This document shows positions 14,643-62,335 of a stretch of 64,000 nt of DNA, piece by piece (position 1 is the first letter of the stretch; every line of letters starts with the position of its first letter). The stretch is from positions 52,904,166 through 52,968,165 of the forward strand of contig OX439044.1 in NCBI GenBank assembly GCA_949317995.1, in the 5' to 3' direction. The DNA comes from Acholoe squamosa (taxonomy: Eukaryota > Annelida > Polychaeta > Phyllodocida > Polynoidae). Position numbers and translations under genes: made by a program. The notes below the pieces were generated by a model. The model was not told the origin of the DNA, ran no database searches, and saw nothing but the letters and a program-made list of their open reading frames with translations.

Positions 14643-15223
14643 TGTAGATTTCCCATGTGGGTGATAATATGTAGATGTCTAAGTCCAGTGTGTTTAAAAA
14701 AATTGGACATCCTTCTAAATTTTATACAGTTTCTGGCTCTGCCGTTGACATTTAAATCTCCCATAATCCAGCATTCATTATGCTTAACACCGACATGTCC
14801 CATACATGTTGTCAAGAAGTTATAACACTCAAGAACTTTACCCTTGGGTGGGCGATATACAATACAGAAAATCTTACTTTTATGACCAGGATATTTCAGT
14901 TTCAAGCATAAACACTCAATATGTTTGTTTACTATTGTGAATTCTTGAAAGACTTCTATATATGGAACAAATGCATTTCTAACGTAGCAGGCTACTCCAC
15001 CTCTTTTACCTCTATGACGATCATTTCTAAACAATGTCATATTGTTTATATGAAGCTGGTTACTTGATGTCGATGTCTTCAGCCAAGTTTCAGTGATACC
15101 TATTAAATCAAACCCTTGCAGATATCTGCTGATGAAGTTGTATTTGTCACATAGACTCTGAGCATTCATTGCTAGGTATTTCAAACCTATCTCGGAGACT
15201 ACCTCCTGAGGGCTCTTACCCAT
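14552..15223 (-). pseudogene. LINE endonuclease domain (APE type), copy 1
   Basis: The open frame begins with ATG at 15221-15223. It shows the exonuclease-endonuclease-phosphatase signature: an N-terminal NAQSL segment, ITETWL, RGGVACYV, VYRPP and the catalytic GDLN motif in order. This domain nicks target DNA for target-primed reverse transcription. The frame shifts at about 14640, where the next frame continues with a GDH motif (normally the end of the endonuclease) and then RT. The shift and the later stops make this a fragment. Confidence 0.8.
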
Positions 15224-21865: not shown

Positions 21866-24665
21866 GAGTTTGAGTTTGAAATGAGTTTATTGGCCAACAA
21901 TATCTTAACGTACTGAAGCTTTTACAATTATCAGCCGATATACAGAGGATACATTAAACATGATTGTATGTTGTATACATTTAGTGTTTGACAAGTGGTT
22001 TCCATGAACAGTCACATACTTAAGTTTGTCCTATACATATTATATAACATACATATTTCTGCTGCCCAACATTAACGCTCAAGTCAAATTATAATTTCAT
22101 ACAAGTATTTCTTGAACTTTTGAAGGTTATCCACGATCTGTACATGTACCGGTAGATGATCCCAGATAATACTACCTCTATACAGCGGACTTTATCTATA
22201 TAACTCAATTCTAGGTCGATTTACCTTAATTTTTATTTTAGCATTACCCCTGAGAGGTCTAATTGGGGCAATTCTGTTCTCTAACACTTGTACATATTTA
22301 TACATCATACAGGCTATTACCTGATTTCTTCTGTTTGCTAGTGTGTTGACCTTATATGCTATCAGTAAATTGTTTACATGGATATCTTGAGGTTGTCTAA
22401 CCTTTTTGCATGCTCGTAAACAATGGTTCTGGATTGTGTCCAAGTGATCTACTATTGTAGCAGGGCCACTTTCCAATATATAACTACAGTATTCTAACAA
22501 TGGGACTATCATAGTCTTATAGATTTTAAGGCTGGTATCAGCATCCAAGTATTTCACAATATTTCTTAATTGTTTTAGTTTAACAGTACCTTGTGAATCT
22601 ACTTTCTTACAATATGGCTTAAAGTTCAAGTCAAAGTCAATTATTACACCGAGGTAGTTGAAGTGATCTATGCCAGACAATCTTGTATTATTCAAAAAGA
22701 TGTCATATTTAACAATACGTTGGTTATTTGAGTAACACCATAGAACCTTTGTTTTTTTGACATTCATAGTTAAGATATTCTGTCTACACCATTTTCGATA
22801 TTACCAGCATCATTCTGCATAAGTTTACTCATAATCTCTGTATCTCTACCATTTAATACTAGCACTACATCATCTGCATATAGAAAAAATTCTCACTGTT
22901 TTATTACACTGGTTATGTCATTGAAACTATAACGGACCTAGGACTGTTCCTTGGGCTACTCCACAATCCAATAACTTTTCATTTGATTTAATATTGTTAG
23001 CTACAGTTATTTGTTTTCTACCGTATAAAAAGCTTTTCAACCACCTTAGGCAATCATTATCACAACCAATATTACGTAATTTACTCATCAAAATACTCAA
23101 ATTTACTGTATTAAAAGCTTTCTTTGAATCTAGGAACAGTACCAATGAATAGTCACCTTTATTTCTAGCTTCAATCAAATACTGAATTAACCTGAATGTG
23201 GCATCAACTGTCGATCTGTTTGGAATAAAACCATATTGCCTGTCACTGATAATATTATTTTCAATAATATAATTCATCAACTGTGCATGTACAATTTTCT
23301 CTGTTAATTTAGAGAATACATTTGTCACAGTTATGGGTCTCCAGTTAGATACATCAGATAAATTTCCTGTTTTGGGCAACGGGACTATTTGTCCAAGTTT
23401 CATAACATCAGGTAGTGAACCCTTAGCAATAGATTCATTGACCAGGTTTTGTAGTAGATACGGTTTGTGACTTAGTAATAATTTTATAATATTACATGGT
23501 ACATCTTTAATACATGAACTTTTGTGACCCATTATAGATTTCACAGTTGTAGCACATTGATCTACAGTTACTTCTCTCAAACTCAAGACACTGTTGGTTC
23601 TCAGTCTATCTGGTATGTAAACAGTACTAGTTATTAGACTCAATAAATCTGTACCTATATTTATATAATAATCATTTACAAAGTTCGCAGTGTGACACTG
23701 TTCAATGGTATTACCATTATTATCTTTCAAACACATCCTTGGTTTTGAACTATGTCCCTTCCAGACTCCATTTAGGATTTTCCAAAAACGCCTTGGGTCA
23801 TTTTTGAACTTGTTTAATAAATTTGTAGTTATATTCTTTCTTTTAACATCCAGTCTTTTATTGATATTTTTTTAACCTGTTTAGCTCTTGCCAAGGCTAC
23901 ATTCACCCTGTTAGGTCTACATTTCTTGGCTTTATTGAAAAATCTCTTCTTTAATGTTATCATACGATGTATCTCCTCGTCAAAAAATATATCATTCTCT
24001 CTCACAGTACGAGCCTTTACAGGATGTTTTGTATTTAGATACATATTAATATTATTAATAATACACTCATATTTGTATCATATCTCATATCTACATTATT
24101 ATTGTCCATTACAATATTGTTCCAGTCTGAGTTATCCATTGCATTTATAAAGTCTTCTTTTGAAAAATTTCTCATATCTCTACATTGTTTGACTATGGCT
24201 TTGGGTTTTACTATTTTCTGCTTTTTCCTTATAACATTAATCGGTATATGGTCACCACATAGATTATCAAGTTCACCATATGCTTTGATACAGTCACAGT
24301 TTGTATAAAAGTGGTCCAAGGTGGACTTCCCATGTGTATGATAATGTGTTGCAGGGTATGGACACTATGGTGGGTCCAATACCAGGATAACGGTGGTGGT
24401 TGCTATCCTATACTGTGAATCCGTATTACCAAGCTGTGGTGTAACTGAACCACAAAAGTGCAAGGTAATGGTCCACATGGTGCAAAACATATTAATTCTA
24501 TCAGTTAGTTAATACATCAATATCCATGTACCAGTATAACAAACTTATAATAGAATACCATAAGACCCGTCTTAACTACTAATTATTTCAATGAGTTCCA
24601 GTAGGGAATATCAATACCAATTTTAGTAGTACTGGGACTGTATAATTATATTATTGTCCCATACT
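21866..24665 (-). mobile_element. Non-LTR retrotransposon (CR1/Jockey-type LINE), copy 2, defective
   Basis: Same family and orientation as copy 1. The 5' UTR (about 24665-24352) matches copy 1 around GGGTCCAATACCAGGATAAC and GAATCCGTATTACC. A deletion between about 24346 and 24352 removes what in copy 1 is the endonuclease (roughly 650 bp). The RT, post-RT region and 3' UTR are present, ending in the GAGTTTGAGTTTGAA tail at 21866. Several frameshifts and stops inactivate it. Confidence 0.85.
22192..24319 (-). pseudogene. LINE reverse transcriptase, copy 2, multiply frameshifted
   Basis: Four open pieces occur in three frames: 24035-24319, 23829-24044, 22927-23736 and 22192-22767. Motifs in order are GDHIPI, LPKTGNL, WRPITV, GFIPNRSTVDA, LFLDSKKAFNTV, GVAQGTVLGP, and YADDV (near 22866-22882, in the gap between two open pieces). 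The post-RT IYKTMIVPLLEYCSYI, SGP and TIQNHCLR blocks follow. The conserved C-terminal LYRGS...WDHLP segment follows an in-frame TAA just below 22192. It is not functional. Confidence 0.85.
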
Positions 24666-44222: not shown

Positions 44223-44646
44223 TGTAGTGGTTCGTCTCGTTAACACTGGTTAAGTTAGATTAAATCATAACGAAGAGAGAGAAAAGTTTCCGGGTAGGCA
44301 ACCGAGCTTTTATTTCATAGCTTATGTTACATACGATCACAGCCTCAGAGGACTACATGCTACTAGGGCATTCGGTTACCCTTTCGGGTAACGACCTGGT
44401 TGAGCAGTGGGTAAACCACTGCTGAAGAACATGGGCTAGGACCAGCCTTATATAGGGGAAAAGCCCGCAAACTCAGACGGGCCACGTGACGTGTGGCGGA
44501 CGAGTGGTAGGCCCCCTGGTGTAATGGATACGAACCCAGAGGCAGGTGCTGCCACCTGCCATCCGGATTCCCCCACTACACCCGAAGGACCTAGGTCTGA
44601 GTCTCACGGGTACATGAACGTAAAGTGTAAATACCATACCCCTACA
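44223..44646 (-). repeat. 3' LTR (424 bp)
   Basis: Plus-strand ends are TGTAGTGGTT and CCCCTACA. Compared with the other LTR it has a 9-bp insertion (near 44244) and five base differences. It contains the same TATA, AATAAA and hairpin elements. Confidence 0.95.
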
Positions 44647-44657
44647 CTGCCCCCCTT
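44647..44657 (-). other. Polypurine tract (plus-strand primer)
   Basis: On the minus strand AAGGGGGGCAG lies directly against the 3' LTR, the expected place and composition for second-strand priming. A single C interrupts it. Confidence 0.6.
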
Positions 44658-46075
44658 AGACAATAACTTGGGGGTAATTAAACCGCAGTGTATTAATAAC
44701 CTAGTAAGTGATTGTTTACAATACTAAAAAGGGGTATTAATTACACTTGCTCGATGTGAAATAGGCTATAGTATAAGACTATCCTATTTCTGAAAAATTA
44801 TACAATAATAGCATTGAGTGTCGTTCATTTCATTTCCACCAGTAGCTTATAACAACCACAAATGATAAATATATAATTATCACAGATTTATAGTAACGTT
44901 TTGACAACAGTAGGGTCCTGAAAAGGACCGGTGGTTGTAAATAATGATCGTATTACAGTTATTAAACCCGGAAAATTTTTTTCGACTTTTTAAATTAACA
45001 ACTCTGTCCACTTTATAAAGTGAATTGAATATTAATGATCAGATATGAACAATTAATCTGATACTATATGAACACAATTAGGTATTAACCTGAGTAATAC
45101 AATACTAAGTTTAGAGAAATCCGTTGGACCTTCTCTTATTTTATAGAAAAATATTTATACTTTTGAGACGCAGCTCAGTTTATACCTTAGTGTTTTATAT
45201 TTACAAGTTACAGAAGAAGTATAGTCTCTTAATATATTGAGACCAGGAATGACCTATATAGACAGTTATAGGTCTAGGATTACCTTAAACAACTTTTAGG
45301 ATTCGCAGATCCAGTATATTTATAGGTAAGTACCCTTATATAATAATACATCTTTATAAAAGATATTTTATAGTTATAAATACAATTTTACATACAATAT
45401 AATATTATCAACAAAGTTACTTGTTTTCATGATTGGAGGATGTAACAGGAGTCGGATGCTGCTGATGTCTTGGTATGGGCGAGCTGAACCCTGATGCCTG
45501 TAGTGCTAGCTAACTGGAGATAATAAGAGGTCCATTTGTAGATTATTGAAGAACTTTATGGGCGTAGCTAAACCCTGATGCCTGTAGTGCTAGCTAACTG
45601 GAGGTAATAGTAGATCCAGTTGTAGACTGTTGATGGACTTAATGGGCGTAGCTAAACCCTGATGCCTGTAGTGCTAGCTAACTGGAGGTAATAGTAGATC
45701 CAGTTGTAGACTGTTGATGGACTTTATGGGCGTAGCTAAACCCTGATGCCTGTAGTGCTAGCTCACAAATAGTAGTGGTGTAGTAGTAAATCCGGTTTGT
45801 AGTTCAAAAGTCCATATTAGCGTAAATTGTCCATGATTTTATAATAGGCACAGTCATTATATTATAGCACGGTACAATTATGGTGTTTACAGCATTCATA
45901 CTCCTCCTCCAGAGTGACTTGTTCGTTTCTCCTTCGGTTTTCAGTTTCCGGATTAGGGTACAGTTTGGTACCCAAATCAATACGGGTTGGATAAAAAAAT
46001 GGTTTCCTATCCAACAATACATAGGTAATAGCACCCCGGGACACACAATTATGTCTGATCTTCATGCAACAGTTT
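44658..46075 (-). other. 3' untranslated region of the LTR element
   Basis: About 1.4 kb without an ORF lies between the 939-codon frame and the polypurine tract. It is AT-rich except for the 84-bp repeat array. Confidence 0.7.
45483..45770. repeat. 84-bp tandem repeat in the retrotransposon 3' UTR
   Basis: CCCTGATGCCTGTAGTGCTA starts at 45489, 45573, 45657 and 45741, exactly 84 bp apart. Units differ at few sites. The array begins in a GGGCGAGC/GGGCGTAGC context and has about 3.5 units. Confidence 0.9.
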
Positions 46076-48895
46076 TCACTGTTCCATGTTCTCCTCGGGT
46101 GGCTGGTTTGGACCTGGTTGTTGAGCCTGTGGCTGAACGGGGGGGTCCACACCAGCTCCATCCGTAGGTGCCAATGCGGGGACAGCAGGTGTTAGTTTCA
46201 CCTTTTGGCGAGCTTCGAACAGGTTCAAAGCATGCTCAGGTGTGCCGTCCCAGTTATCCATGATAACTCCAAAAACGTTGCTCGTTCTAGGTCGAGCATC
46301 TGAGAAGCTTTTTTCCTTCTCGGATAAGGCCTCCTGCCGCAGATTAGCAGCTTCCTGCTTATCTTTGGCAACATCCGCCTTTATCTGAGTAGAGATCCGG
46401 TTGATCTCTGACTTCTGGATCGCGTCAATGCACTGGAGAGTGCTCGACACGGTCCGACGATACATATCCAGGTGGAGGTTTTCCAGATGGTGCTGTAACG
46501 TCTCAAATTGCTTGCTCTGGATATTGCAAGACAATTTGTCCTCCTTCTTGAAGAAGGTCTCCACTGTCTGGATCAGCTTAGGCCGATGAACCACAGCACC
46601 AGGTGGGGGTACCTGACCCTGAGGCTTCAGCTGTGCTCCAGACCCACTCGCAGTGACAGCTACACGCGTATGCGAAGAAGCAACCGCAGTAGTAGCCGCA
46701 CTAGCAGTGGTCGTAGAAGGGCCTTGATTTGGTAATCCCTGAGCTAGGGGCAACCGCGACAATTCCCTTCTAAGGTCTTTGGCTGTCAACAATGGCACGG
46801 GTGGACGTTGTCTCACCACAGCACTCATTGTTGGTCGGGGAGCTTGACCTCCTACTGTCGGCAGTTCCTGCTTGACCCTCCCGTACTGATCAAAGATTTG
46901 CATCTCTGGTCCGGGTGGGCCCATAGCAGGGTACTGCTTTGGGTCTTTGACATTCAAAGGCGCGTGTTTCCGGGAGGACTGGCCACCCGGTCCACTGACA
47001 CCAAAGAATGTCGGGTTCTGTGCACCCAGTGGGGTTGGTGCTCGTCCATAATAGGAAGGAGTTCCAGTAGGAGATGGAAGATGTGGCTTCTTCCTTCCCC
47101 CATTCGTCTGTTTCTCCAGCGCCTCCAGTGGTGACCTGGCTCGGCTTGGAGATTCAGACGCCTGTCTCTTCCTATCTGCCGCGGAGGGTCCCTGACGGTA
47201 ATCCCTGCGGCTTCGGACCTGTTCTCCAGATGGAGTTACATAAGCCCCACCACGGCGGCGGGCCTTGTTGCTCCTCCATTCGTTCAACAGATCGTACTCC
47301 TCCTGAGCGTACTCTAGTTTGCCGGACCCGGGAGTCTGGGCAAACCGAGCCTTTAGTTTCTGGTTAGTACCAGGAACCGTAGGCGCAAACTGCTTCGTAC
47401 TCGGTGTGAGGGCAGCCAACTTCTCTGCATTGAGGCCCTTAAGGTTACCATAGAGTTCAGAGTGAATTTTCATCACCTGATCTATGGCTGCCTCCAGGCC
47501 CTCTCCATGCGAAGTCACATAGTGCCGGACCATGTCTCCGCGTCGGGGGGTGACACATCCTGTGCATTTAGCACATTTCTTGCCAACCTCCCGGTCCCAG
47601 ACATATTCCGGCCTCTGGTGCATATGAACCTCCACGAGATGACGAAGGAACTCGTCTTTCTCGATGAAGAATTCAACCTCACCCTCACTTTGAGTACAAC
47701 GTTGAAAGGGACAATCCTTACGATCCTCCCCGTAGTACTCATCTAGAGCAAACTTGAGCTTGCCCTTCTGGTCATAATTGTACAGACCATTGGGCGAATT
47801 CTTAACGAATTCCCAATAGATCCAGTACATATTGGCCGGCTTTCTATCGGAGAGCTTCTTGCGAAGCCACTCCTCCATATCTTCACGCTTCTCACAGGTG
47901 ATCCGAGGGGGCAGTCTCCATACGGATTTACTCCCCTTCAGGTGTCCCCTGTGTAGAGGAATGAAGTCGGCAAAGTTGCTATTGGCCCAGATAGCAGCCT
48001 CTTGCTCGTCAGTCGGAGTGGCATCCACAACTGGGTCAACCGGCTCCTCTCCCTCCGGGTCGGATGGTACATCCACAGGTTGCACAACGGGTTGTTGACC
48101 CTCGAGAACCTGGGCTGCGGCATCTTGAGCGTCTCCACTCAAATCGGCCATTACATCGTGTAGCTTGACGATTGGCACACCGAGCTCAACTTTTACGGTT
48201 GGGACAGCCGGTTCAGCTTCTGAAGTTTCAGCTTGAACATCTACCTCGATAGGTTCAGGTTTGCGTTGGTTAACCTTCTTCTTATTCCGCCTGCGGGATC
48301 TGCCGTTAATAGAAGTGCCGGGCTCGGATGCATCCGTCTCGTTGCCGGAGACATCCGAAGCCTTAGCTCCCTTCTTATTGGCCGAGCGTGGGGACACCCG
48401 ACGGGTTCGGGTACTGTTGGCCACACTCGTGCTGGTAGAGGGTTCGGTTCCTGACCGTTTTCCTTTACCCTTACCTTTGGTGGGGGTTCCTTTACCCTTT
48501 CCACCAGCTGCTTTCCCTACCACCTCAGTCTTCGTAGCAGTAGACTGAGCAGTTGTAGGGGAATCATCTGCACCAGATGGAACCTTCTCAGGTACTACTG
48601 CTGCGTCTCCTAAGGTAGGAGTTACAGCAGGAGACATGAGACGGTCCATCCGATCGGCCATCTTGGCTGTTACCTGCACGGGTGCGGGTCCTGGTACTAG
48701 CTCCGGATGCGCCAGTGCATACTGCCTCTCCAATAGATGTACTACGAGGTCCTGAATCACCCCGAGTCTGTCTAGTGGAGACACACCAATACGGGCCTCC
48801 TCCGCCTCAATGGTTTGAGACGTAATGGGGACCCCTGGACAGTAATCCACAACAGCGTTACCTGCTGCTTCATACTCATCCGCTGTGCCTAACAT
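46076..48895 (-). CDS. Large zinc-finger protein in the env position (939 aa), novel
   Basis: A complete frame from ATG (48893-48895), 18 nt after the preceding ORF stop. I recognise no family. Residues 125-210 are low-complexity and basic (KGKGKGKR, RSRRRNKKK), NLS-like. Two zinc-finger-like units follow: C395-x4-C400-x18-H419-x4-H424 and C444-x2-C447-x10-H458-x4-H463 (C441 could replace one ligand). 540-770 is rich in P, S, R, Q. 785-865 looks like a coiled coil. VKVE (234-237) and VKQE (674-677) fit the SUMO consensus. There is no signal peptide or membrane span, so it is not an envelope glycoprotein. Nuclear, nucleic-acid-binding or targeting roles are inference. That it is intact beside a broken gag suggests recent function or recent insertion. 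Confidence 0.8.
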   Translation of the reverse strand: MLGTADEYEAAGNAVVDYCPGVPITSQTIEAEEARIGVSPLDRLGVIQDLVVHLLERQYALAHPELVPGPAPVQVTAKMADRMDRLMSPAVTPTLGDAAVVPEKVPSGADDSPTTAQSTATKTEVVGKAAGGKGKGTPTKGKGKGKRSGTEPSTSTSVANSTRTRRVSPRSANKKGAKASDVSGNETDASEPGTSINGRSRRRNKKKVNQRKPEPIEVDVQAETSEAEPAVPTVKVELGVPIVKLHDVMADLSGDAQDAAAQVLEGQQPVVQPVDVPSDPEGEEPVDPVVDATPTDEQEAAIWANSNFADFIPLHRGHLKGSKSVWRLPPRITCEKREDMEEWLRKKLSDRKPANMYWIYWEFVKNSPNGLYNYDQKGKLKFALDEYYGEDRKDCPFQRCTQSEGEVEFFIEKDEFLRHLVEVHMHQRPEYVWDREVGKKCAKCTGCVTPRRGDMVRHYVTSHGEGLEAAIDQVMKIHSELYGNLKGLNAEKLAALTPSTKQFAPTVPGTNQKLKARFAQTPGSGKLEYAQEEYDLLNEWRSNKARRRGGAYVTPSGEQVRSRRDYRQGPSAADRKRQASESPSRARSPLEALEKQTNGGRKKPHLPSPTGTPSYYGRAPTPLGAQNPTFFGVSGPGGQSSRKHAPLNVKDPKQYPAMGPPGPEMQIFDQYGRVKQELPTVGGQAPRPTMSAVVRQRPPVPLLTAKDLRRELSRLPLAQGLPNQGPSTTTASAATTAVASSHTRVAVTASGSGAQLKPQGQVPPPGAVVHRPKLIQTVETFFKKEDKLSCNIQSKQFETLQHHLENLHLDMYRRTVSSTLQCIDAIQKSEINRISTQIKADVAKDKQEAANLRQEALSEKEKSFSDARPRTSNVFGVIMDNWDGTPEHALNLFEARQKVKLTPAVPALAPTDGAGVDPPVQPQAQQPGPNQPPEENMEQ

Positions 48896-48912
48896 TAGGA
48901 TCTGGTCTCTAT

Positions 48913-49566
48913 CTATCTAGAGACCTCATCTGCCTTGACACCGGTGTAACCCGTTTTGTCAGACACGTAGGAGGGCCTATAAGAGGTATTCCTTCGGAAA
49001 GCCATTTCTGCGTCCCAGACGGCTTTACGAAACCATAAGTGGACTACCAATCCTTTGGCCATCTGATGGTAATCCATCAACCAGGACTCCGGAAAGGTAT
49101 TAGCCCATTGCGGATGAGCACATTCCCAGATTGCGTTGACAACACGCTCGTCAACCTCTCTGGGCGTCCCATAACAGGTGGGTATCAGCATTTCCTCAGA
49201 AATTGCTAACATCCGTCCGTCATAGGGACTGGCTATATCATGCCATTCTGGACTGTCTGGTTGACAGGCCAGGTACATTGGCCTGTCAACCGGAGAAGCA
49301 GGTCCCAAAGCACCGAATGAGGTACTACCACCAAGACGGGGCGGCAATTGAGGGGGAGGTGGCATCAGAGCCCTGTCATGAGACTGGACTCCTGCCGGCT
49401 CTCCACTCAAACCTTCGGATGGAGGGGCTACATAAGGCTCACCTACATCAGTTCGTTGTTGAACACCTCGGCGTTCAGGACTAACTTGTCTGGAGTTGTC
49501 GGATGCATCATAGAACGATTCTACGTTGCTATCGTCTACTCCAGAGAAGTACTGATCAACATTCAT
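48913..49566 (-). CDS. Uncharacterised 217-aa ORF in the env position
   Basis: It starts at ATG 49564-49566 directly after an in-frame TAA that ends the small upstream ORF, and stops at TAG 48913-48915. The N-terminal half is acidic and proline-rich (a PPPPQLPPRLGG stretch near residue 73). The C-terminal half looks folded, with many W/Y/H residues (PEWHDI, ECAHPQWANTFPESW, GLVVHLWFRK). The GLVVHLWFR segment faintly recalls DLVVHLLERQ near residue 49 of the 939-aa protein. No family, signal peptide or membrane span is recognised. Confidence 0.6.
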   Translation of the reverse strand: MNVDQYFSGVDDSNVESFYDASDNSRQVSPERRGVQQRTDVGEPYVAPPSEGLSGEPAGVQSHDRALMPPPPQLPPRLGGSTSFGALGPASPVDRPMYLACQPDSPEWHDIASPYDGRMLAISEEMLIPTCYGTPREVDERVVNAIWECAHPQWANTFPESWLMDYHQMAKGLVVHLWFRKAVWDAEMAFRRNTSYRPSYVSDKTGYTGVKADEVSR

Positions 49567-49692
49567 TTAGTGATCTATCTGATCACAATCAGCATCGTAT
49601 GTATAAGTGGGACTCTGGGGAGAACCACTTCCATACTCCTGCGGGGTGCTGGCACCGGCACCACCGCCAAGGCGGACGGCCTCTTCTGCCAT
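49567..49692 (-). CDS. Small ORF (41 codons) in frame with the 217-aa ORF
   Basis: It runs from ATG 49690-49692 to TAA 49567-49569, followed with no gap by the ATG of the 217-aa ORF in the same frame. It begins MAEEAVRLGGG and is rich in G, S, T, Y. Either it is the true N-terminus of the next ORF, cut off by one stop mutation, or a separate leader peptide. An acceptor-like TTTTATCCCCGAACAG ends at about 49705, 13 nt upstream of the ATG. Confidence 0.4.
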   Translation of the reverse strand: MAEEAVRLGGGAGASTPQEYGSGSPQSPTYTYDADCDQIDH

Positions 49693-49704
49693 CGACAGAC
49701 GTGG

Positions 49705-49720
49705 CTGTTCGGGGATAAAA
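49705..49720 (-). promoter_or_regulatory. Candidate splice acceptor for a subgenomic mRNA
   Basis: A minus-strand pyrimidine-leaning TTTTATCCCCGAACAG lies just before the first ATG of the env-position ORFs. Paired with the donor-like GTAAGC at 57220-57225 it would remove gag and pol, as in retroviral env mRNAs. This is sequence inference only. Confidence 0.25.
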
Positions 49721-50305
49721 TATCCCAATCCACCGGATAAGCAGTAAGTACTGCTTACCCAGTGAAAGGCGGGTGCCTTTTAACGAGGGCACACCTCAGA
49801 ATATGGCTGTCACAGGCTATCAGACTCCAACAAGAGTAAGACCACCCTCGGCCACGTCTTCTTCCTTCGCAGGAATAAGACAATATGGCGGGATACTCGA
49901 ACTTGAATCGCTGCGCATGATCAAACCGGCGCCTCACGTGACCATTCGAAAATGGGTCAACAACTTTCCCGCGTGCCCTTAATTAGGTCACGCACCCTTA
50001 CATAAAAACAATACAATACCCGATCGGTCGTCTGTCCGTACTCAGGGTTCAACCATGACAACTCGCTAGGTATTATGGAGTTTATGGATAGCATAAGCAT
50101 ATCCACCGGATTATCCGTCCAAAACCATGGGTACATTGTCATAGGACCTTTTCCAGAAACTCATGACCGGCTCAAATATACATTGAACTAGGTTACAACA
50201 TATAACAGTACACAGTACAGGACAACACACTCGTTGTGTTAACAGGCTAGGTTACGGCAGTCTTTAGCAACCTTGGACTGCGTCTAAGAGGTTTTGAGAC
50301 CTCTT
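49721..50305 (-). other. Non-coding spacer between pol and env-position ORFs
   Basis: About 585 bp without a plausible frame. A palindromic AAGCAGTA-AG-TACTGCTT lies at about 49738-49755 (plus strand). Confidence 0.5.
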
Positions 50306-53300
50306 TTATTGACCTGGTATCCATAAGAGCCTTTTCCAAGGTCTTCTTAGCCTTAGAAGGACCTTTCCTCTTATTTTTACCTGCGCCTGCCGAGATTTTT
50401 GTATCTTCCCCTGTTTTCCGGATGTTACGACAGGGGGCACCACCCTCTTCGGGTCTGCAACCTTCCGTGGCCGCCCGGGTCCTCGCTTTCGGGTCGGCAC
50501 CACTTCGAGTTGCTTAACACGACTCTGTTCCATTACTTTCAATAGACCATCGCCATACATTTCGGTGGAGGTATCCCTCCCTCTCCATGGGCGTAGTCTT
50601 GCTACATTTGACTTGTAACATTTACCAAGCTGTGATTTAATAATCACTGTGCAATCACTAATAACCTGAGTTATAGTGAAAGGTCCATCCCAATTGCTGG
50701 CTAATTTCAGGTTGGCTAGAGGTTGGTGTAGACGCAGTACTCTATCCCCTAGATTAAAAAATCTAGCTTTTAGACCTGTGTCATAGCCAACTTTCTGCCA
50801 ACGCGCAGTTTTCTGCAACTCGTCTCTAACCCTCTCATAGGCTTGTTTGAAATTATCCCTTAGGGATTCTACAAACATCACCTGGTAAGGGGTTTCCGGA
50901 TTCATTCTTATTACGCCAAACACCAAATCTGCTGGCATAATCAAATCCTCTCCAAAAACAAGGAGATTAGGAGAACAGTTTGTGCTCGAATGTACAGTGC
51001 CATTATAGGCATGTACCACGAATTCACATTGTTCATCCCAATCATCCATCTGCTCATTTACTAGAGACTTCAATACTTGGATCAAAGTCCTATTGAATCT
51101 CTCTACCTGCCCATCGCTCTGTGGCCTATAGGGATTAGTTCTTGTCTTGCAGATCGCCAGACAATTACACATCTCTTGCCACAGACTAGACTCAAATTCT
51201 CTGCCTTGGTCACTATGTAACATGAGTGGGACACCTAGGTGCAGCACCCACCCTTTTACAAAGGCCATAGCACAAGTAACAGCCTTATGATCCAGTAAAG
51301 GAAACACTCGGGTGTACTTGGTATAATAATCAGACACGACCATCATACACGTGTTGCCACTAGGAGTGGGGGGAATCCCACTAATAATGTCAACAGCTAT
51401 TCTAGCAAACCTTACACCAAACAGTTCCTGGGATAATGGCAGTTTGCCTAACCCGGGTCCTGGTTTGTTCTTACAGCACTCGGGACAGGTCTCCACCCAT
51501 CGGGTGAGATCTGTACTCATGCCGGGCCAATAGTATCGTCTGGTTAGACGTTCTAGAGACCATTTCTTTCCGAAGTGTCCACTAGTTCTATGCCCATGAC
51601 AGAAATACATAATATCTCGTCGCATAGCACTAGGTATGACAACTTGCAAGGTTTTCTTCCTATTAGAATGGTTCTTCCATCGAAACAGAATACCATCCCG
51701 GACTTCTAGCTCGGCCCATTGAGCTAAGAATCGTCTCATCTCTCTGTTTTCCAATGACACTTCAGGTCTTGGAGGACAGATACCCTGATTAAGGAACTTA
51801 ATCAAACGTGATGTGACTGCATCAGACTCCTGGAACTGCTGGATGGTCTCCAAGGACCAATTCAAGACATGTTCCGGATGGGTTTCGAATGGAACTCGAA
51901 CCCCTGCCAACACAGCATTGTGTGCTCCACAATCAGTGCACTCAGCATTTGCACATTTCCTCACTGGGATTCTAGACAAAGCATCTGCATTCAAATGCTT
52001 TGCCCCGGCTCGGTGTTCAATCTGGCTGTGATTTAGACCGAATTCCGATAGGTGCGCTAACCAGCAACCTATCATCCCCTCTGCATCTTTGAAGTTCAAT
52101 AACCATCTGAGGGAAGAGTGGTCAGTCCGTAGAGTGAAATCACTCCCCCACAAAAAGTGCTTGAACTTCTTCGTATAGACCACCACAGCCAACAACTCAC
52201 GTTTAGTGGTACAATAGTTTCTTTGAGATTTACTCAACGTGTTACTAGCGAAGGCTATAGGAACTTCAACCCCATCCTGGACCTGAGAAAGGGCGGCTCC
52301 TATGCTTTCATTACTAGTATCGGTATCTAGAATGAAATGATCATTCTCCGTAGGGTACTTCAACACAGGTGTTCTTGCAAACAAATCCTTTATTTTCATA
52401 AAGGTCTCGTCTTGCTCGGATCCCCAAGGGAATCGTTCCTTTCTCACCCCGGGTGTCCAGTGGGACAAACTCTGGATAGGAAAGGCAACCCTTGAATATC
52501 CTGGGATAAAGTCCCGGTAGTAGGAACAGAATCCGAGGAAGGATCTGACTTCTTTCGCATTCGTGGGTGCCTGCCAATTTGACATGGCATCCAGTTTCTC
52601 CGGATCGGCTTTAATCCCTTCATTCGAGATTATTCGCCCCAAGTAATTAATAGATCTTTTAAAAAGGTTGCATTTCTTGGGCTTCAGCTTCAAACCGTTA
52701 GTTATGATCCTTTCCAGAACCATACCTAAATTTTCCAAGCATTCCTCGTATGTCTTCCCAAAGACAATCACATCATCTAGATAGACGAGACATTTCTTCC
52801 ATAATAGGTCACTTAATAAAGTTTCCATCATGGCTTCAAATGTCGCCGGTGCATTGCACAATCCGAACGGCATCACATTATATTGGAATAACCCAACATG
52901 ACTGGAAAAGGCCGTCTTCTCCATGTCTTTCGGATGCATACCCACTTGCCAGTACCCGGATTGTAAGTCTAGAGAGCAATACCATTGCTTACCTCCAAGG
53001 GAGTCTATAGTCTCATCAATCCGTGGTAAGGGATATGAATTCTTCTTGGTCATACCATTCAATTTCCGGTAATCTATGCAGAAACGGATGGTACCATCTT
53101 TCTTAGTCACCATGCACACAGGGCTAGACCAAGGACTGGTTGATGGAATTATTACATCCTGTTCAAGCATTTTAGCTATCTCCTCCTCAGCTACCCTTTT
53201 TTTTGCTAGTGGGAGTCTTCTATAAGGAATCTTAAAAGGTTCATTCTCACCAGTGTCAATCGTATGCAGTACCTTATCGGTACGCCCCAATTTTTCACTT

Positions 53301-53455
53301 GGTGCTGCAAAAGCTTTACGGTACTTGTATAACAAGTCAGTTAGAGCTTCACGTTGTTCATCAGTTTCTACATGGCTTTCGGCTACTAGAGTTTCTAGTT
53401 CCGGACTCCTTTTGGGTGAGGAAGGGACTCCGGGTGCCGAAACATGTTTACCAAT
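50306..53455 (-). CDS. Pol: reverse transcriptase, RNase H, integrase
   Basis: The frame is open from 53455 to 50306 (1049 codons). It has no start ATG at its head and overlaps the protease frame by 61 nt in the -1 frame, so it is probably made by frameshifting. Blocks in order: RT (SPWSSPVCMVTKKDG, RFCIDYRKLN, the catalytic YLDDVIVFG), RNase H (FILDTDTS, TDHSSLRWLL, HLNADALSR), integrase HHCC zinc domain (H...H, CPEC), DDE core (VDIISG, HSDQGREFE, PQSDGQVERFNRT), a GPY/F module (NWDGPFTITQVI) and a basic tail with an AT-hook (KRGPGRPRK). The active-site motifs are all present. It copies the RNA and integrates the DNA. Confidence 0.95.
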   Translation of the reverse strand: MGKHVSAPGVPSSPKRSPELETLVAESHVETDEQREALTDLLYKYRKAFAAPSEKLGRTDKVLHTIDTGENEPFKIPYRRLPLAKKRVAEEEIAKMLEQDVIIPSTSPWSSPVCMVTKKDGTIRFCIDYRKLNGMTKKNSYPLPRIDETIDSLGGKQWYCSLDLQSGYWQVGMHPKDMEKTAFSSHVGLFQYNVMPFGLCNAPATFEAMMETLLSDLLWKKCLVYLDDVIVFGKTYEECLENLGMVLERIITNGLKLKPKKCNLFKRSINYLGRIISNEGIKADPEKLDAMSNWQAPTNAKEVRSFLGFCSYYRDFIPGYSRVAFPIQSLSHWTPGVRKERFPWGSEQDETFMKIKDLFARTPVLKYPTENDHFILDTDTSNESIGAALSQVQDGVEVPIAFASNTLSKSQRNYCTTKRELLAVVVYTKKFKHFLWGSDFTLRTDHSSLRWLLNFKDAEGMIGCWLAHLSEFGLNHSQIEHRAGAKHLNADALSRIPVRKCANAECTDCGAHNAVLAGVRVPFETHPEHVLNWSLETIQQFQESDAVTSRLIKFLNQGICPPRPEVSLENREMRRFLAQWAELEVRDGILFRWKNHSNRKKTLQVVIPSAMRRDIMYFCHGHRTSGHFGKKWSLERLTRRYYWPGMSTDLTRWVETCPECCKNKPGPGLGKLPLSQELFGVRFARIAVDIISGIPPTPSGNTCMMVVSDYYTKYTRVFPLLDHKAVTCAMAFVKGWVLHLGVPLMLHSDQGREFESSLWQEMCNCLAICKTRTNPYRPQSDGQVERFNRTLIQVLKSLVNEQMDDWDEQCEFVVHAYNGTVHSSTNCSPNLLVFGEDLIMPADLVFGVIRMNPETPYQVMFVESLRDNFKQAYERVRDELQKTARWQKVGYDTGLKARFFNLGDRVLRLHQPLANLKLASNWDGPFTITQVISDCTVIIKSQLGKCYKSNVARLRPWRGRDTSTEMYGDGLLKVMEQSRVKQLEVVPTRKRGPGRPRKVADPKRVVPPVVTSGKQGKIQKSRQAQVKIRGKVLLRLRRPWKRLLWIPGQ

Positions 53456-54369
53456 TCAGACAGGACAACCGACCCGAGGATCGTATCCTTCTGTACGTAG
53501 ACAGTCTTATTACCGGTATTGGATATAGGAACCACCGTCCAAGCAGCGTTAGCTACTAGAACGTCGGCGGATTCCAATCCGATACTTGACAACATGGCCA
53601 TGTCTGGCTCTACAACTCCAGTTTTTCCTGAAAACTGTCTGTCCGCTCGACATAAGACATCACAGGCTGTGCCCGGTGGTATCTTAACAGTCTGGGCTAC
53701 ACTGGCTACACTGCTTACTTGCCTAAGTACACATTGTACTTCGAGATGATACGGGTCTCTCACTTCCAATATTCCCCTCTGGGAATCTAACCTTGCTCCA
53801 TATAATGCAGCAAAATCCAGACCAAGTATACCATCATCCGCGATGTTCGCCACAGTAGGAGTAAGGATGAAGTCCTTATCTTCCTGTAGACTGAACCTCA
53901 TACATGTTCTACCGAACGTTTGTATCATGCTACCGTCGGCCGTACGAGCATTTCCTTCCGTTGTGAAAGTTTCATGATTCGTAGGCAAAAGATCGTAGAA
54001 TCTCTTAGCAATACAGGAGTGGCTAGCACCCGTATCGACAAGAAACTCAGCGGATCTACCACTCACAGATACAACTGCGTACCACCTCCTACCTTTCAAG
54101 TAGGTAGGACTACTTGCGTACTTAGCAAGTTCCGTCTTAGCGCCGAGGTCAAATCCACATCCCTTCAAAAACTCGAGACAAGGATGACCCGGGGGGAACT
54201 GGGCACACCCCACCCTGGCCAACTCATTGGCCACTCCCTCTGGACTGATATCGGGTTTCCCCTCTGTGTTCTTCTGCCGGTTCTTGACACCTGGTGTACT
54301 ATCAGTCTCCCCAGCCTCATGAGTAAGGAACTGATCAGGCTCCTTAGCTTCACTGCTGGGCGAAAATCG
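53395..54369 (-). CDS. Aspartic protease region of the LTR element
   Basis: The frame is open between TAG 54370-54372 and TAG 53395-53397 and has no upstream ATG. The catalytic FLVDTGASHSC motif is near 54023-54050, followed by DGILGLDFAALYGA, the usual hydrophobic-hydrophobic-G flap-side segment of retropepsins. A linker rich in E, K, T, P precedes it. The enzyme cleaves Gag and Pol precursors. How translation enters this frame from gag is unclear (see gag). Confidence 0.85.
   Translation of the reverse strand, partial: RFSPSSEAKEPDQFLTHEAGETDSTPGVKNRQKNTEGKPDISPEGVANELARVGCAQFPPGHPCLEFLKGCGFDLGAKTELAKYASSPTYLKGRRWYAVVSVSGRSAEFLVDTGASHSCIAKRFYDLLPTNHETFTTEGNARTADGSMIQTFGRTCMRFSLQEDKDFILTPTVANIADDGILGLDFAALYGARLDSQRGILEVRDPYHLEVQCVLRQVSSVASVAQTVKIPPGTACDVLCRADRQFSGKTGVVEPDMAMLSSIGLESADVLVANAAWTVVPISNTGNKTVYVQKDTILGSVVLSELVNMFRHPESLPHPKGVRN
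53410..53416 (-). promoter_or_regulatory. -1 frameshift slippery heptamer CCCAAAA (protease to pol)
   Basis: On the minus strand C CCA AAA lies in the protease reading frame (codons CCA, AAA) and fits X-XXY-YYZ. It is inside the 61-nt overlap, 12 nt upstream of the protease TAG. Ten nt downstream is a short perfect hairpin (ACTAGA-AAC-TCTAGT). Pol is in the -1 frame relative to protease, as the model needs. The hairpin is weak, so a longer structure may be the stimulator. Confidence 0.6.
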
Positions 54370-54468
54370 CTAGAGGATTCTCACCAGTACCACAAGCGGC
54401 GATAGGCTGGCAGTCATGGCAATCACTCATTCGGGGGGTAATCCGGTTGCCTTCATGGACACCCCCTC

Positions 54469-57209
54469 TCAGTTTTCCTTCTTCACTGAGTCCTCCTTAC
54501 CCGGATTGTTCCGGTAACGAGTGTTTCTATAAACTGGCTTATCTGCCTCACACTCGGCAGCATAATGCCCAGTTTCCTGACATCGGAAGCATGTCACAAC
54601 GCTCCTATCAGGCTTAGGCCTCCTAAGATTTTCAGTAATCTTCTTTACCAAATTGTTAACCAGGTCCTTTGATAAAGACGGACCGGTAGTAGGTTTGGTA
54701 TCGGGTTGAGTCACAGGAGGTTTGGAAGTAATCACTTTCTCCTTGACGTAACCCGGTTTCTTTCCCCAGTTCCGGTTATACCGGGGGTTCCCTTGGCCAA
54801 TGGCCCCAACGTTTTCATCTTCGTCAGGTTCCCCTGATTCGGATGAATCGGTTTCGGGTATTCCTTCCGGGATTATCATTGCTGACATCCGTTGAGGTAC
54901 CTTCCCGGCAAAGATACGGGCCTTTCGATCATAATGATCTAGGGACTGGAACAAATCTGTCAGAGAGGCATCATTCTTTCAAGCTTCACAGGCTACTGTC
55001 CTGTGTTCCTGATTCCGCAATCCTTCAATGAATTGTTTAAACATTTCATCTAGGAAGCATTCATCATCTAGTCTCCATTGAGGTCTGGCTTTATGCAACA
55101 GTCGTTGACATTCTAAGCCGAACACTTTGGCAGATTCCTTAGGCTTCTGCGTTCTTTTAGTGAACGTCAGCCAAGGATCTTCTCCAACTATATTCCCATA
55201 TAAATATGAAGCAATCTCTATGAGTTCATCATATTTCATATGGGCCGAGAGTCCTACTATTTGAGAATCTCTCCATTGTTCCACGGCTCCTTTTCCGTCG
55301 CCTTCCTTTAACCAGCATACTAGATAAGAGAGAGCTTCCGCTTTACCCCATCCATTGCAGTTAAAGACATCTGCGCAGCCTTGATACTCCTCCTTCCAAG
55401 GGTTCTTGGCATTAAAGGGGGTAGGTATCTTAGCTACTCTACGAGCTGGATTCGTGGATCCAGTAAGGGTTAAACCCTTACTCCATTCCATGATCTCAGT
55501 ATCGTCCAGACCTTGATTGTAACAATCAACACCTAAGTTAGCAATCGCTGCATTAGAGTCATGCAGCGCTTGTAACCCTGGAGAAAGAGATACTCGGTGA
55601 CTGAGTCTCTTTTTCCTTGGAGGATTTGTACCATAAGTACCTCCAAAGCCTCCGGACGGTGGTCCTCCTCCACCCCCTGATCCCCCTGCTCCGTATGGAG
55701 GCACCTGTGAGAAGGTGTATCCGCCGGTTTGAGGAGTTGGCCCTGGATTATTGGTGGGTTGTGTATTTCCACCAAAGCTAAAGAAACCACTATTGGGATT
55801 AGTGTTTCCTCCTGTTCCATACGACTGATTTCCATTATTGAAACCAGTCCCACCGGCAGAGGGTCTGCTTCTGGAACGATCTCCTGAAGGTCCGGATCCT
55901 TGGTCACATCCGGATTGCCCTCCAGCTGGACTGGAATTCCCGGATGATTGTCCGGTTGTTCCTCCGGACATGTTCCGGGTGTTACCATTGGACGGATTCG
56001 CTCCTGTTTGGGACTGACTCCATCCATACTGGGCATACGGGCCATTTGGTCCCCCTAAAGGTGACTGTTGTGGCCATCCGCCGTCAAAGGTGGAGGTTTT
56101 TGCCGAGTGGCTTTGTTTAGCTCCACTCGCTGAGTCACCCCCACTATTTCCCGTACCTAAACCAAGAGGTTTGAAGGTATTATCCGTAAATCTAACCTGA
56201 TGACTCTTTACTCCTTCATAACGAGGTACAGTTGTCTCTGTTACCCCGTCATCGCCCCTCAAAGAGCTCATCTGGTTACTCGCCGTGTTTAGGGCAATTC
56301 CTGAAACAGTGAAGTCTGATTCAAGAGTGCCTACTGCACGACCACTATCTTCTAGATACTTTGACATCTGGATAGCTTTAGCTTCCAGTTCGGAATAGTC
56401 ATCCATCATCTTTGTCTGTTTGGCAGCCAAATCTGTGGATTCACGTATCCATTGACCTTTGAGTTTTTCATGCTCATCGGTTTGTTTTTGATACGTTTTC
56501 CGAGCATCCTTGAAGGCTGATTCAATTTTCATCAGCTCTTCTTGGTACTTGCCATAGGCCGATTGAGTTGAATTTAACTCTTGTTTAGTTCTATTCAACT
56601 CATCACACGAGGCTCTGTATTCCAGATCCGCCTAGTATAGTGCATCACGATACTGTTCGTGCTGGAGTTGAAAATCTTGTTTTTCTTTCTCCATCTGATC
56701 CAATAACAATTGTTGTTGGCGTCTACAACTTTGATCGTAATCAAGACGTTCTGATATCAACTGTTTGTTTTCAGTCAGAATCTTGTCTCGGGTTCCGGTC
56801 AGTGTAATAAGATCCTTCTGGATCTTCTCGTATTCAGCTCTCATGTCTTCAAGCTCGTCCATTTGTTCCTTTCGAATCCACATTTCTGGTGTTTAATTCG
56901 AGAACTATATGGAGTTTCAAACATACCTGCACTAGGCTTTGGTACCTCAAATGGTAGTTTACCAAATTGAGCAGTACTTTTATGCATTGGTGCAGGTTTC
57001 GAAGTACCTCCTGGCATGAATAAGGAGTCTCCAAATTCATCCAGTTCATCATGTAAGGTTTTTCTTACATCCTCTAACCCATCAGGGTAGTGTTCCAGTG
57101 GATCTCTCCACTCTGTACCTTGGGGTGGTGACTTGATTTCACCATCCTCCATCGGGGAGTTTAGCTCATGATTTGGGCCATTTCCCCTAACTGGGCTCAG
57201 CTCAGTCAT
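54469..57209 (-). pseudogene. Gag, broken in this copy
   Basis: It starts at ATG 57207-57209, 28 nt after the primer site. Order: an acidic N-terminus (57209-56841), a long coiled coil (56883 to about 56290), a G/S/N/Q/P-rich linker (about 56130-55640), a capsid-like helical region (about 55600-54980) and one CCHC zinc knuckle, C-x2-C-x4-H-x4-C (about 54551-54592). Visible breaks: a frame change within 56841-56883, an in-frame TAG at 56632-56634 and an in-frame TGA at 54979-54981. The frame ends at TGA 54469-54471. Beyond it the -1 frame stays open to about 54352, where another frame change is needed to reach protease. Sequencing errors could account for some breaks. Confidence 0.85.
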
Positions 57210-57219
57210 TTCTGACTGC

Positions 57220-57225
57220 GCTTAC
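57220..57225 (-). promoter_or_regulatory. Donor-like splice site upstream of gag
   Basis: The minus-strand TTCGG|GTAAGC lies between the primer site and the gag ATG, the position of the major splice donor in retroviruses. It could serve a spliced mRNA for the env-position ORFs. Confidence 0.35.
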
Positions 57226-57236
57226 CCGAAGACCAA

Positions 57237-57251
57237 CTGGTCACGGCACCA
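57237..57251 (-). other. Primer-binding site complementary to tRNA-His
   Basis: The minus-strand TGGTGCCGTGACCAG begins one nucleotide after the 5' LTR. It is complementary to a tRNA 3' end ...CTGGTCACGGCACCA. The acceptor GTCACGGC-A-CCA is that of eukaryotic tRNA-His (whose 5' end is GCCGTGA). Confidence 0.8.
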
Positions 57252-57328
57252 GTGTAGTGGTTCGTCTCGTTAAGTTAGATTAAATCATAACGAAGAGAGA
57301 GAAAAGTTTCCGGGTAGGCAACCGAGCT

Positions 57329-57334
57329 TTTATT
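57329..57334 (-). terminator. LTR polyadenylation signal AATAAA
   Basis: The minus-strand GAAATAAAAGC is the only canonical signal in the LTR. It is duplicated in the 3' LTR, where it would end the transcript. Confidence 0.65.
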
Positions 57335-57466
57335 TCATAGCTTATGTTACATACGATCACAGCCTCAGAGGACTACATGCTACTAGGGCATTCGGTTACC
57401 CTTTCGGGTAACGACCTGGTTGAGCAGTGGGTAAACCACTACTGAAGAACATGGGCTAGGACCAGC

Positions 57467-57475
57467 CTTATATAG
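57467..57475 (-). promoter_or_regulatory. LTR TATA box
   Basis: The minus-strand CCCCTATATAAGG lies about 130 nt upstream of the AATAAA signal, consistent with a U3/R layout. A GTTACCC-GAAA-GGGTAAC hairpin falls downstream, in the likely R region. Confidence 0.65.
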
Positions 57476-57667
57476 GGGAAAAGCCCGTGAAACTCAGACC
57501 GGCCACGTGACGTGTGGCGGACGAGTGGTAGGCCCCCTGGTGTAATGGATACGAACCCAGAGGCAGGTGCTGCCACCTGCCATCCAGATTCCCCCACTAC
57601 ACCCGAAGGACCTAGGTCTGAGTCTCACGGGTACATGAACGAAAAGTGTAAATACCATACCCCTACA

Positions 57668-60960: not shown

Positions 60961-61002
60961 TGATTTTTTGTGCGAATTTTGGGGATACTGCCTAAAAACC
61001 TA

Positions 61003-61306
61003 AAACTAAAAGCAGAAATGGAAAATTCCCTCTAGATCAAAATCTATGGTGAAAAATCATCATATTGTTATGTATTTTTTATGAAAAAGGCTGATTTATT
61101 GTGTTTTTGGACATAATTATGTTTTATAATGTATTAAGAGCTTAATTATCGATTTCAGTTATGAATAATGACCTATGTTCAAGGAGGGGTTCTGACATAA
61201 CTACTAGGAATATCTAAGCCAATGATGTCCTTCGAAAGATCTTGAAATGAACTTTGATAATGACTTTCCCTGCAGAGGGGTGTTTTTGCTTGCCTGGTCA
61301 CATTAT
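61003..61306 (+). repeat. Dispersed direct repeat, copy 1 (about 305 bp)
   Basis: It runs from TAAAAGCAGAAATGGAAAAT to GCTTGCCTGGTCACAT. It matches 62025-62335 at the great majority of positions and continues the family seen at 60670-60960. Confidence 0.85.
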
Positions 61307-62024
61307 TGGCTTTTCTCTGTCAGGACCCCTGCTGTAGTATACAATTCTCGAAGGATAACTCAATCATAAATGACGCTTAATAAGTCATTAGAACAATGTG
61401 CTGGGTGCTCTGCTTAGTTTAATTTTTTTCAGGATATGTTGTTTTGATATGATGAGAAGGGTTGAAACACAATGGAAATGAATCCTTTAACTGGGCGTGG
61501 TTGGAAAAAACCGTTCAGACAAAATGTCTACAATTAAATAATAAGTAGACTGAATTACTCTTGATGTGTCCTCATCCCCTTGGTCACAAGCTATGTTATG
61601 TATGAGGATTAGGGGCAATGGTGTATTTACATATTTAGGCACCCCTGTACCCTGATAGATATGGGACGTGACCTACACAGTGAGGTAAATTATAAGTGGT
61701 ATTCTATGTTCTACAAAGCCGATGGTGATCATAGGGAAGTGCTGTGGCCCATCCCCCATAGCATAAATGTCACTTTGAAAACACTGCTCAGCTCATGTGT
61801 CTGCTTTTCACAAACTTAAGTAATGTAGATGATGATGACTGTCATTTTTTTTTTCATTTGTGGTTAGGAATAAAAACACAGCAGGGTTAGACACAGGCAA
61901 ATGATGTGCAAAAGGCAATATAAGAAGCAAATTTAGAAATGAAGTCACGTCCATCCGTGGCTTCAAATTGCCTTGTGGGACAGACATATTGTCATGCCTG
62001 GTAAAAGCAGAATTGGGTTCTCAC
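61307..62024. other. No gene recognised
   Basis: AT-rich spacer between two direct repeats. Confidence 0.5.
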
Positions 62025-62335
62025 CAGTAAAACTGAAAACAGAAATGGAAAATTCCCTCTAGATCAAAATCTATGGTGAAAAATCATCATATTGTTATGT
62101 ATTTTTTTTATGAAAAAGGCTGATCTATTGTGTTTTTGGACATTATTATGTTTTATAATGTATTTAGAGCTTAATCATCGATTTCAGATATGAATAACGA
62201 CCTATGTTCAAGGAGGGGTTCTGACATAACTACTAGGAATATCTAAGCCAATGATGTCTCATTTGAAAGATCTTGAGATGAACTTTGATAATGAATTTCT
62301 CTGCAGAGGGGTGTTTTTGCTTGCCTGGTCACATG
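62025..62335 (+). repeat. Dispersed direct repeat, copy 2 (about 305 bp)
   Basis: It is similar by eye to copy 1, with scattered substitutions (for example GATTTATTG/GATCTATTG, AATAATGACC/AATAACGACC). The same orientation 1.02 kb apart suggests either two insertions or a segmental duplication. Confidence 0.85.

Follow-up and report, generated by a model that had tools for sequence, protein, structure and literature searches.

What kind of protein is encoded between pol and the 3' long terminal repeat (LTR) of a Ty3/gypsy-type retrotransposon, where some elements carry an envelope (env) gene? The question was raised by an element on the minus strand of a 64,000-nucleotide stretch of the genome of the annelid Acholoe squamosa (assembly GCA_949317995.1, contig OX439044.1, positions 52,904,166 to 52,968,165; hereafter the window). 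Three minus-strand frames of 41, 217 and 939 codons lie between pol (50306-53335) and the 3' LTR (44223-44646), the 41-codon frame starting at 49692 as read from the DNA. The initial annotation had placed large frames in the env position, as was confirmed, and had described an intact protein and two or three separate frames, neither of which held. All three frames are pieces of a single gene, here called ORF3, that spans ∼1,225 codons and is broken in the window. Its product is well supported as a selected, element-encoded, non-envelope protein, and we favour, with confidence just short of even, an accessory nuclear regulator in an RNA-export or RNA-handling role. The gene and its parts were located as follows, all on the minus strand.

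46076..49692, minus strand: ORF3 gene as a whole, broken here into 41, 217 and 939 codons; whole-frame copies have it unbroken at ∼1,225 codons.
48913..49566, minus strand: ORF3 217-codon fragment, in frame with the 939-codon part in 16 of 48 copies.
46076..48895, minus strand: ORF3 939-codon fragment; in 30 of 48 copies this part stays open as far as the usual C-terminus.
47507..47713, minus strand: zinc-finger-like core, Cys/His residues 395-463; common to the relatives L001, L079 and family B described below.
46298..46516, minus strand: predicted coiled coil, residues 794-866; longest helix of an AlphaFold2 model, with a block predicted local distance difference test (pLDDT) score of up to 78.
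46250..46279, minus strand: C-terminal motif, VFGVIMDNW here and FFKVFGVIMDNW in copies L019 and L023; FFxxF[GH]V(x5)W in family A (the family of the window copy), L079 and family B.

The 939-codon frame is far too long to be open by chance, the probability being ∼1e-18 for DNA of this base composition; the five remaining frames have 20-51 stops. The host genome (1.48 Gb, 63 contigs) was searched with the 939-amino-acid (aa) protein as query. From 11,418 first-look candidates 49 copies were scored, the window's own included; all but two matched residues 1 to 939, the 48 besides the window's own were 94-96% identical to the query, and many sat inside an open frame of 1,253-1,254 codons. Copies were analyzed at the sequence level for 48 of the 49. 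A single frame of 1,209-1,227 codons, running from the ATG of the window's 41-codon frame through the 939 region, was present in 16 of them (one, L034, with a different C-terminal end), and in 30 the frame was open for at least 935 codons to the usual C-terminus. Because 16 copies hold one uninterrupted frame, ORF3 is one gene, not three frames. The 217-codon frame (ORF2) was rejected as a separate gene, being in the same frame as ORF3 in whole copies. That it duplicates the N-terminus of ORF3 was rejected too, with shuffle z values of 0.3 for the ORF3 of L001 and 0.7 for the ORF3 start.

The window copy is rather diverged, with mean proportions of nonsynonymous (pN) and synonymous (pS) differences of 0.030 and 0.080 to the other copies, compared with 0.017 and 0.057 among the others. 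Most copies have 950-953 residues in the 939-codon part, so that the window copy lacks 11-13; comparison by eye placed ∼10 of the missing residues in an altered stretch before the C-terminal motif. A likeness of this stretch to L001 (10 of 300 shuffles as good) was dropped, as other copies differ there. Two whole-frame copies, L038 and L039 (G000:C1:125581604-125590327), lie 4,508 bp apart and are equal at 4120 of 4216 positions ungapped; the piece upstream (L076) has no more than a trace of pol. At L029 (G000:C15:62526026-62530244) one open frame (1594) runs from integrase-like sequence into ORF3.

The copies have been under purifying selection. Pairwise pN/pS was 0.309 over the 939 region (29 qualifying copies); for the full frame, 20 copies of which four had an unusual length gave 0.290. 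The 16 whole-frame copies of normal length gave 0.306 by a simpler count, with a codon-bootstrap 95% interval of 0.249-0.375. Variants present in more than one copy gave lower ratios (0.187 over the 939 region, 0.148 over the full frame) than singletons (0.42 and 0.41). By region the ratio was 0.26 at the N-terminus, 0.48 in the helical part, 0.56 in the disordered basic/acidic part, 0.16 in the zinc-finger-like core (taken wider than residues 395-463), 0.27 in the linker, 0.20 in the coil with the C-terminal motif and 0.64 in the tail, so that the core was lowest, followed by the coiled-coil end. Picking open-frame copies may push pN/pS downward; the contrasts between regions and between shared and single variants therefore matter more than the level. 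The core Cys/His residues, the putative ligands, were kept in 28-29 of the 29 copies. In the synonymous-codon test the window ORF3 stood out at -3.3, compared with -1.9 for the ORF3 of L001, -1.9 and -1.1 for the two pols and -1.5 and -1.3 for the controls.

The protein comprises an N-terminal part, a basic disordered part, the Cys/His core, a disordered linker, a C-terminal coiled coil and the FFxxFGV(x5)W motif. Much of the initial description was borne out, including a zinc-finger-like, probably nuclear protein with basic tracts and a coiled coil (modelled as the C-terminal helix at 794-866) and without envelope features. Two C2H2-like units had been proposed; Cys/His units are present, while the second finger departs from the canonical form in some relatives. 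Aligned over four branches, the core reads C-x-F ... T ... R-H-[LI]-[VI]-E-x-H ... P ... R-R-x-x-x-V-R-H, with 19 invariant columns. Compared with the C2H2 spacing C-x2-4-C ... H-x3-5-H, the first unit, which has a long loop, occurs in all four branches and the second is irregular in L001 and family B. The two V-K-x-E sites reported before are present together with one F-K-K-E, and V-K-x-E is fixed in 29 of 29 copies. These sites are absent from L001, which ruled out SUMO-type sites as a general feature. FFxxF[GH]V(x5)W follows the coiled coil in family A, L079 and family B, with a looser version in L001. No membrane span or hydrophobic start was found by hydropathy, no dedicated signal-peptide predictor being run: the highest 19-residue Kyte-Doolittle mean was 1.03 in the window protein, 1.16 when the ORF2 fragment and the L001 protein were taken together with the window 939 frame, and 1.21 in the 16 whole-frame copies, in which the first 48 residues reached at most 0.09.

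Database searches returned no identity for the protein. Pfam gave no family above cut-off for ORF3 or its relatives, zinc-finger families included, and no match whatever for the whole-frame ORF3 of L023. A sequence search of the PDB gave a single match, at E 0.22. No relative was found in scans of viral contigs, nor in the protein database, even at E 10 for the core, in a search of limited reach that scored a candidate only if it was of similar length and had short words in common with the query (at most 7,998 candidates in one search). These searches did not list the ORF3 of L001 though the pol of the same contig was listed (P0045), so public data may still contain relatives despite these negatives.

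Relatives were located in other elements. L001 is a 13.4-kb contig, its ends overlapping by 91 bp, that encodes gag, a pol 56% identical to that of the window and a 1,051-aa frame in the env position similar in layout to the window ORF3. The contig, filed under a 'Calditrichota' metagenome-assembled genome (MAG), is evidently an LTR element of a eukaryote. The search of the host genome returned no close match to its ORF3, which indicates that L001 came from another organism; the same query gave nine further host-genome loci at 29-32% identity (E 5e-13 to 3e-8). L001 to L012 are all pol relatives whose contigs had been assigned to bacterial or archaeal MAGs, suggesting that eukaryotic DNA has contaminated these bins.

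Local alignment of the window and L001 proteins was compared with shuffled sequences. None of 300 shuffles was as good over the core, which had been chosen after a BLAST match; over the whole proteins 33 of 300 were as good. The direct pair scored 36.6 bits (best shuffle 31.2). A hidden Markov model (HMM) of the near-identical copies gave 7.0 bits for the best stretch of L001 and a whole-sequence score below six of 300 shuffles. Given the weak HMM and database results, the link between window and L001 rests on the core test and on bridging relatives. These are family B (L080-L082, with L085 nearby), which consists of decayed repeats, and L079; they match L001 (E 1e-13 and 6e-20) and the window family (E 1e-8 and 5e-4). 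The C-terminal match of families A and B scored 26.2 bits, below the best shuffle (29.3), and the C-terminal likeness of L001 did not beat shuffles by BLAST, so the common C-terminal motif is treated as a resemblance and not as tested homology.

L079 (G000:C10:27363765-27365552) is a solitary intact frame of 596 aa that has one more Cys/His unit, near the N-terminus. The 4-kb pieces upstream of L079 and L081 yielded no pol match. As query, the L079 protein matched 73 places in the genome, namely itself and 72 at 29-36% identity (next scored match 31%). An open frame of 1,009-1,013 aa was present in 22 of the 72, 20 of these lacking a stop in the matched stretch. L079 is possibly a host gene or domesticated copy; it may as well be a relic or domesticated ORF3.

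With the pol P0024 as query, a further pol family came to light, of which 33 copies were scored at 55-56% identity, most of them open frames of 1,570 aa. At nine of these 33 scored copies, family C, an L079-type match lies 1,879-1,896 bp downstream on the same strand, where 0.004 would be expected. As the two lists are confined to the places with the best scores, absence cannot be concluded for the remaining 24 pol copies. Family C, known from coordinates and match alone, is a second young family of the host genome that carries a distant ORF3 relative. The nine co-locations, with the position of the frame in L001, show by sequence comparison that at least three element families have an ORF3 of this kind in the env position: the window's, L001's and family C. 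It is not universal among relatives, since L002 (37% pol identity) has no sense frame of at least 120 aa in the 4.8 kb after pol.

The lack of a membrane span, the basic tracts, the constrained zinc core and multimerisation segment, the env position and splice-like sites together fit the accessory nuclear regulator that we favour. ORF3 would be made from a spliced message, by joining a leader donor before gag to an acceptor just before its ATG. The protein would then enter the nucleus, multimerise through the coiled coil and use the zinc core to bind nucleic acid of the element itself; unspliced genomic RNA would thereby be exported and used for Gag-Pol and for packaging. Such a role would be that of the CERV protein of Cer1 and, in outline, that of HIV-1 Rev. 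CERV is described as an accessory nuclear protein of Cer1, a Ty3/gypsy element of C. elegans, that is needed for export of the genomic RNA; it has 517 aa and is translated from a five-exon spliced mRNA that shares gag exons (PMC10309623). Two features of the window bear on this proposal.

57220..57228, minus strand: candidate 5' splice site CGG/GTAAGC, first intron base 57225, between the primer site and the gag start.
49567..50305, minus strand: pol-to-ORF3 spacer with the 41-codon gene start; the candidate acceptor lies inside.

In L001 a candidate leader donor, GAG/GTGAGT, likewise lies between primer site and gag, and ranks second among the donors of that element. The candidate acceptor in the window, ATCCCCGAACAG, has its last intron base at 49705; a pyrimidine-rich stretch ends in ACAG 12 nt before the ORF3 ATG, and ACAG is present in 43 of the 45 copies in which the start was found. 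As a group, the candidate splice sites score moderately.

The spacer folds better than dinucleotide shuffles, with z of -6.6 in the window and -3.9 in L001 (20 shuffles each). Over the whole element, in 150-nt tiles, mean z was -2.3 sense and -2.0 antisense in the window and -1.7 and -1.5 in L001, compared with -0.3 to -0.7 in flanking DNA and -0.1 to -1.1 at seven other loci. Local hairpins thus pervade the whole element (44223-57667) and L001; given the near symmetry of the strands, folding may be a property at the DNA level as well as the RNA level. No known RNA family was found in L001 or in the window between 40000 and 60000.

Several results weigh against a spliced, RNA-exporting regulator. 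Of the 101 donors with a positive score in the window element, the leader donor comes only sixth; among 69 acceptors, those preceding ORF3 stand at 22, 23 and 48 (21 and 30 of 39 in L001). Two AlphaFold2 runs were uninformative (mean pLDDT 34-35), and strings resembling a nuclear export signal (NES) were loose matches found in every protein scanned, ORF2 included. Zinc binding by the core is predicted from its residues, and the core could equally bind DNA or protein. Pol is more constrained than ORF3, with pN/pS of 0.228 (10 sequences), and mostly so on shared variants (0.054, from 6 nonsynonymous and 31 synonymous, compared with 0.15-0.19); ORF3 is therefore constrained, though less than pol. 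The first exons of CERV are those of gag, while ORF3, of ∼1,225 aa, has its own ATG, and the two are likened by description, no sequence relation being claimed, with only the role of CERV established by experiment (PMC10309623).

The other parts of the element were assigned as follows.

44223..57667, minus strand: whole Ty3/gypsy-type LTR element, ∼13.4 kb, from LTRs and gene order; CCAC flanks both sides.
57253..57667, minus strand: 5' LTR, ends TGTAGGGG...CCACTACA; agrees with the 3' LTR at 395 of 402 aligned bases.
57240..57251, minus strand: primer binding site TGGTGCCGTGAC, one base past the 5' LTR.
56841..57209, minus strand: gag, first frame fragment, from the open-frame map.
54979..56598, minus strand: gag, second frame fragment; weak match to L001 gag (28%, 234 aligned positions, E 2e-9).
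54469..54954, minus strand: end of gag, containing a CCHC zinc knuckle that passes the cut-off of Pfam zf-CCHC (E 7e-6).
53395..54234, minus strand: pol protease region, in a different frame from reverse transcriptase (RT); matches the L001 pol start (E 1e-34).
50306..53335, minus strand: pol with RT, RNase H, integrase and an AT-hook-like C-terminus, from Pfam, homologues and the motif in homologues.
45482..45766, minus strand: 84-nt tandem repeats between ORF3 and the 3' LTR, from a repeat search.
44223..44646, minus strand: 3' LTR, from alignment of the LTR pair and sequence inspection.

The LTR pair was aligned over these 402 bases and a 22-base terminal block; as read from the DNA, the element ends in TG...CA and CCAC is the target duplication. 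The primer binding site we take to be complementary to the 3' end of tRNA-His; a similar site with one mismatch lies at 11671 in L001, where chance is not excluded. The order protease, RT, RNase H, integrase is the Ty3/gypsy arrangement, as found with Pfam and with the same domains in homologues. The best 23 of 120 pol homologues listed by the protein search were 68-79% identical, and 18 of the best 22 have a single pol frame of 1,352-1,430 aa. In the window gag and pol are interrupted as well as ORF3, gag lying in three frame pieces and protease and RT in different frames.

The 84-nt repeats fold slightly better than shuffles (z -1.6), and arrays of them were present in six of eight copies checked, the window copy included. 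Beside the element, at 61001-62334, lies a direct repeat with copies ∼1,028 bp apart and blocks 93-98% identical. By eye, broken frames resembling non-LTR retrotransposons (endonuclease- and RT-like) were seen at 13068-15223 and 22192-23736, apparently related places, and a frame of the short repeated peptide YVHV.YTLCTR at 18502-18843 is probably satellite-like DNA.

Other functions were weighed against the same evidence. Distinctly possible is a transcriptional regulator or anti-silencing factor, in which ORF3 would bind the LTR or chromatin and raise transcription or block host silencing, as retroviral transactivators do, or as has been proposed for TRP28 of plant Retand elements (PMC11963269). 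The Cys/His core, the most constrained region of the protein, the basic tracts and the lack of a membrane span suit such a factor, and a predicted DNA-binding protein encoded between pol and the 3' LTR of Retand is a described precedent (PMC11963269); no Pfam DNA-binding family, however, reached cut-off. A virion structural or Gag-accessory protein, acting in nucleocapsid-like packaging or in cell-to-cell movement of capsids, is unlikely. The coiled coil, basic regions and env position would allow it, as would the precedent of sORF2 in insect elements (PMC11952523), but gag already has a CCHC knuckle and sORF2 is a short transmembrane protein, whereas ORF3 shows no membrane span.

The initial annotation had suggested directing integration, and a targeting or chromatin-tethering factor for the pre-integration complex would accord with the nuclear-type composition and zinc-like core. 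This is now rated as quite unlikely because many integrases of the clade end in an AT-hook-like motif of their own, a simpler route to chromatin. Such tails (GRPRK and similar) recur in the pol clade: a GRP-containing motif follows the last GPF/GPY in 41 of the 120 listed homologues and in 31 of the best 38, one of these 31 (P0028) not being AT-hook-like. AT-hook-like tails of Ty3 integrases were not found in a literature search judged by title.

Capture of a host gene with no role in the element (transduction), or a decaying passenger, is very unlikely. The solitary intact frame of L079, with no pol match upstream, would be expected of such a gene; against it stand the 49 scored copies, the purifying selection (pN/pS ∼0.3, a check that the initial annotation had proposed) and the relatives in the same position in other families, none of which suits a one-off transduction. 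In searches of limited reach no host protein matched along the length of ORF3, and no known envelope or host protein aligned with it. A divergent envelope protein has only its position in its favour and is most improbable, given the hydropathy values above, which show no hydrophobic span or start, and the disordered, lysine/arginine-rich stretches.

The accessory regulator remains to be compared with known systems. If the export or activation reading is right, the retroviral proteins Rev, Tat and Tas would act alike, no homology being claimed; they are far smaller proteins than ORF3. The paper on CERV also describes Rev (PMC10309623). Extra open reading frames downstream of pol are known in plants (PMC7264820), and Odin elements of sea anemones are described as having no env-like gene (PMC9040795). 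Plant Retand elements resemble the window element in a long region between pol and the 3' LTR with tandem repeats and a conserved extra frame, TRP28, predicted to bind DNA; TRP28 is antisense to gag-pol whereas ORF3 is sense, and the two are compared by description (PMC11963269). LTR elements of bdelloid rotifers are, like this one, animal elements with varied non-envelope ORF3s downstream of pol, but those encode enzymes (GDSL, DEDDy) or membrane or coiled-coil proteins, and the word 'zinc' is absent from the main text of that paper (PMC5408684). The sORF2 of insect MDG1-group elements is likewise an accessory protein of elements without envelope, differing from the large ORF3 in being short, transmembrane and likened to fusogens (PMC11952523).

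No description of the ORF3 protein family was found in the literature searched, subscription journals lying mostly outside its scope. As extra frames after pol and other accessory proteins are known, the novelty is that of the protein family and not of the slot, and ORF3 is rated as a new family in an already known slot. It is proposed tentatively that a large Ty3/gypsy clade, probably of animals, encodes a dedicated nuclear regulator of a new family, built of a zinc core and a coiled coil with FFxxFGV(x5)W, independent of Rev and CERV and acting on unusually structured genomic RNA. Control in the style of complex retroviruses would then be old and common among retrotransposons, and L079 may be a host gene. 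Not every frame downstream of pol should be taken for env.

Among the accessory proteins compared, CERV appears nearest in kind. It too is an extra protein beside gag-pol and not an envelope; it is described as having a Cys-rich possible zinc finger whose cysteines are essential, a candidate nuclear localisation signal and NES and a possible leucine zipper, and as highly divergent between species, a further likeness to ORF3 (PMC10309623). In the literature covered, CERV alone among non-envelope accessory proteins of Ty3/gypsy elements has a nuclear role established by experiment. A second such family, under selection and present in several element families of one genome and in an element of another organism, would make the role of a non-envelope gene in the env position testable with natural replicates.

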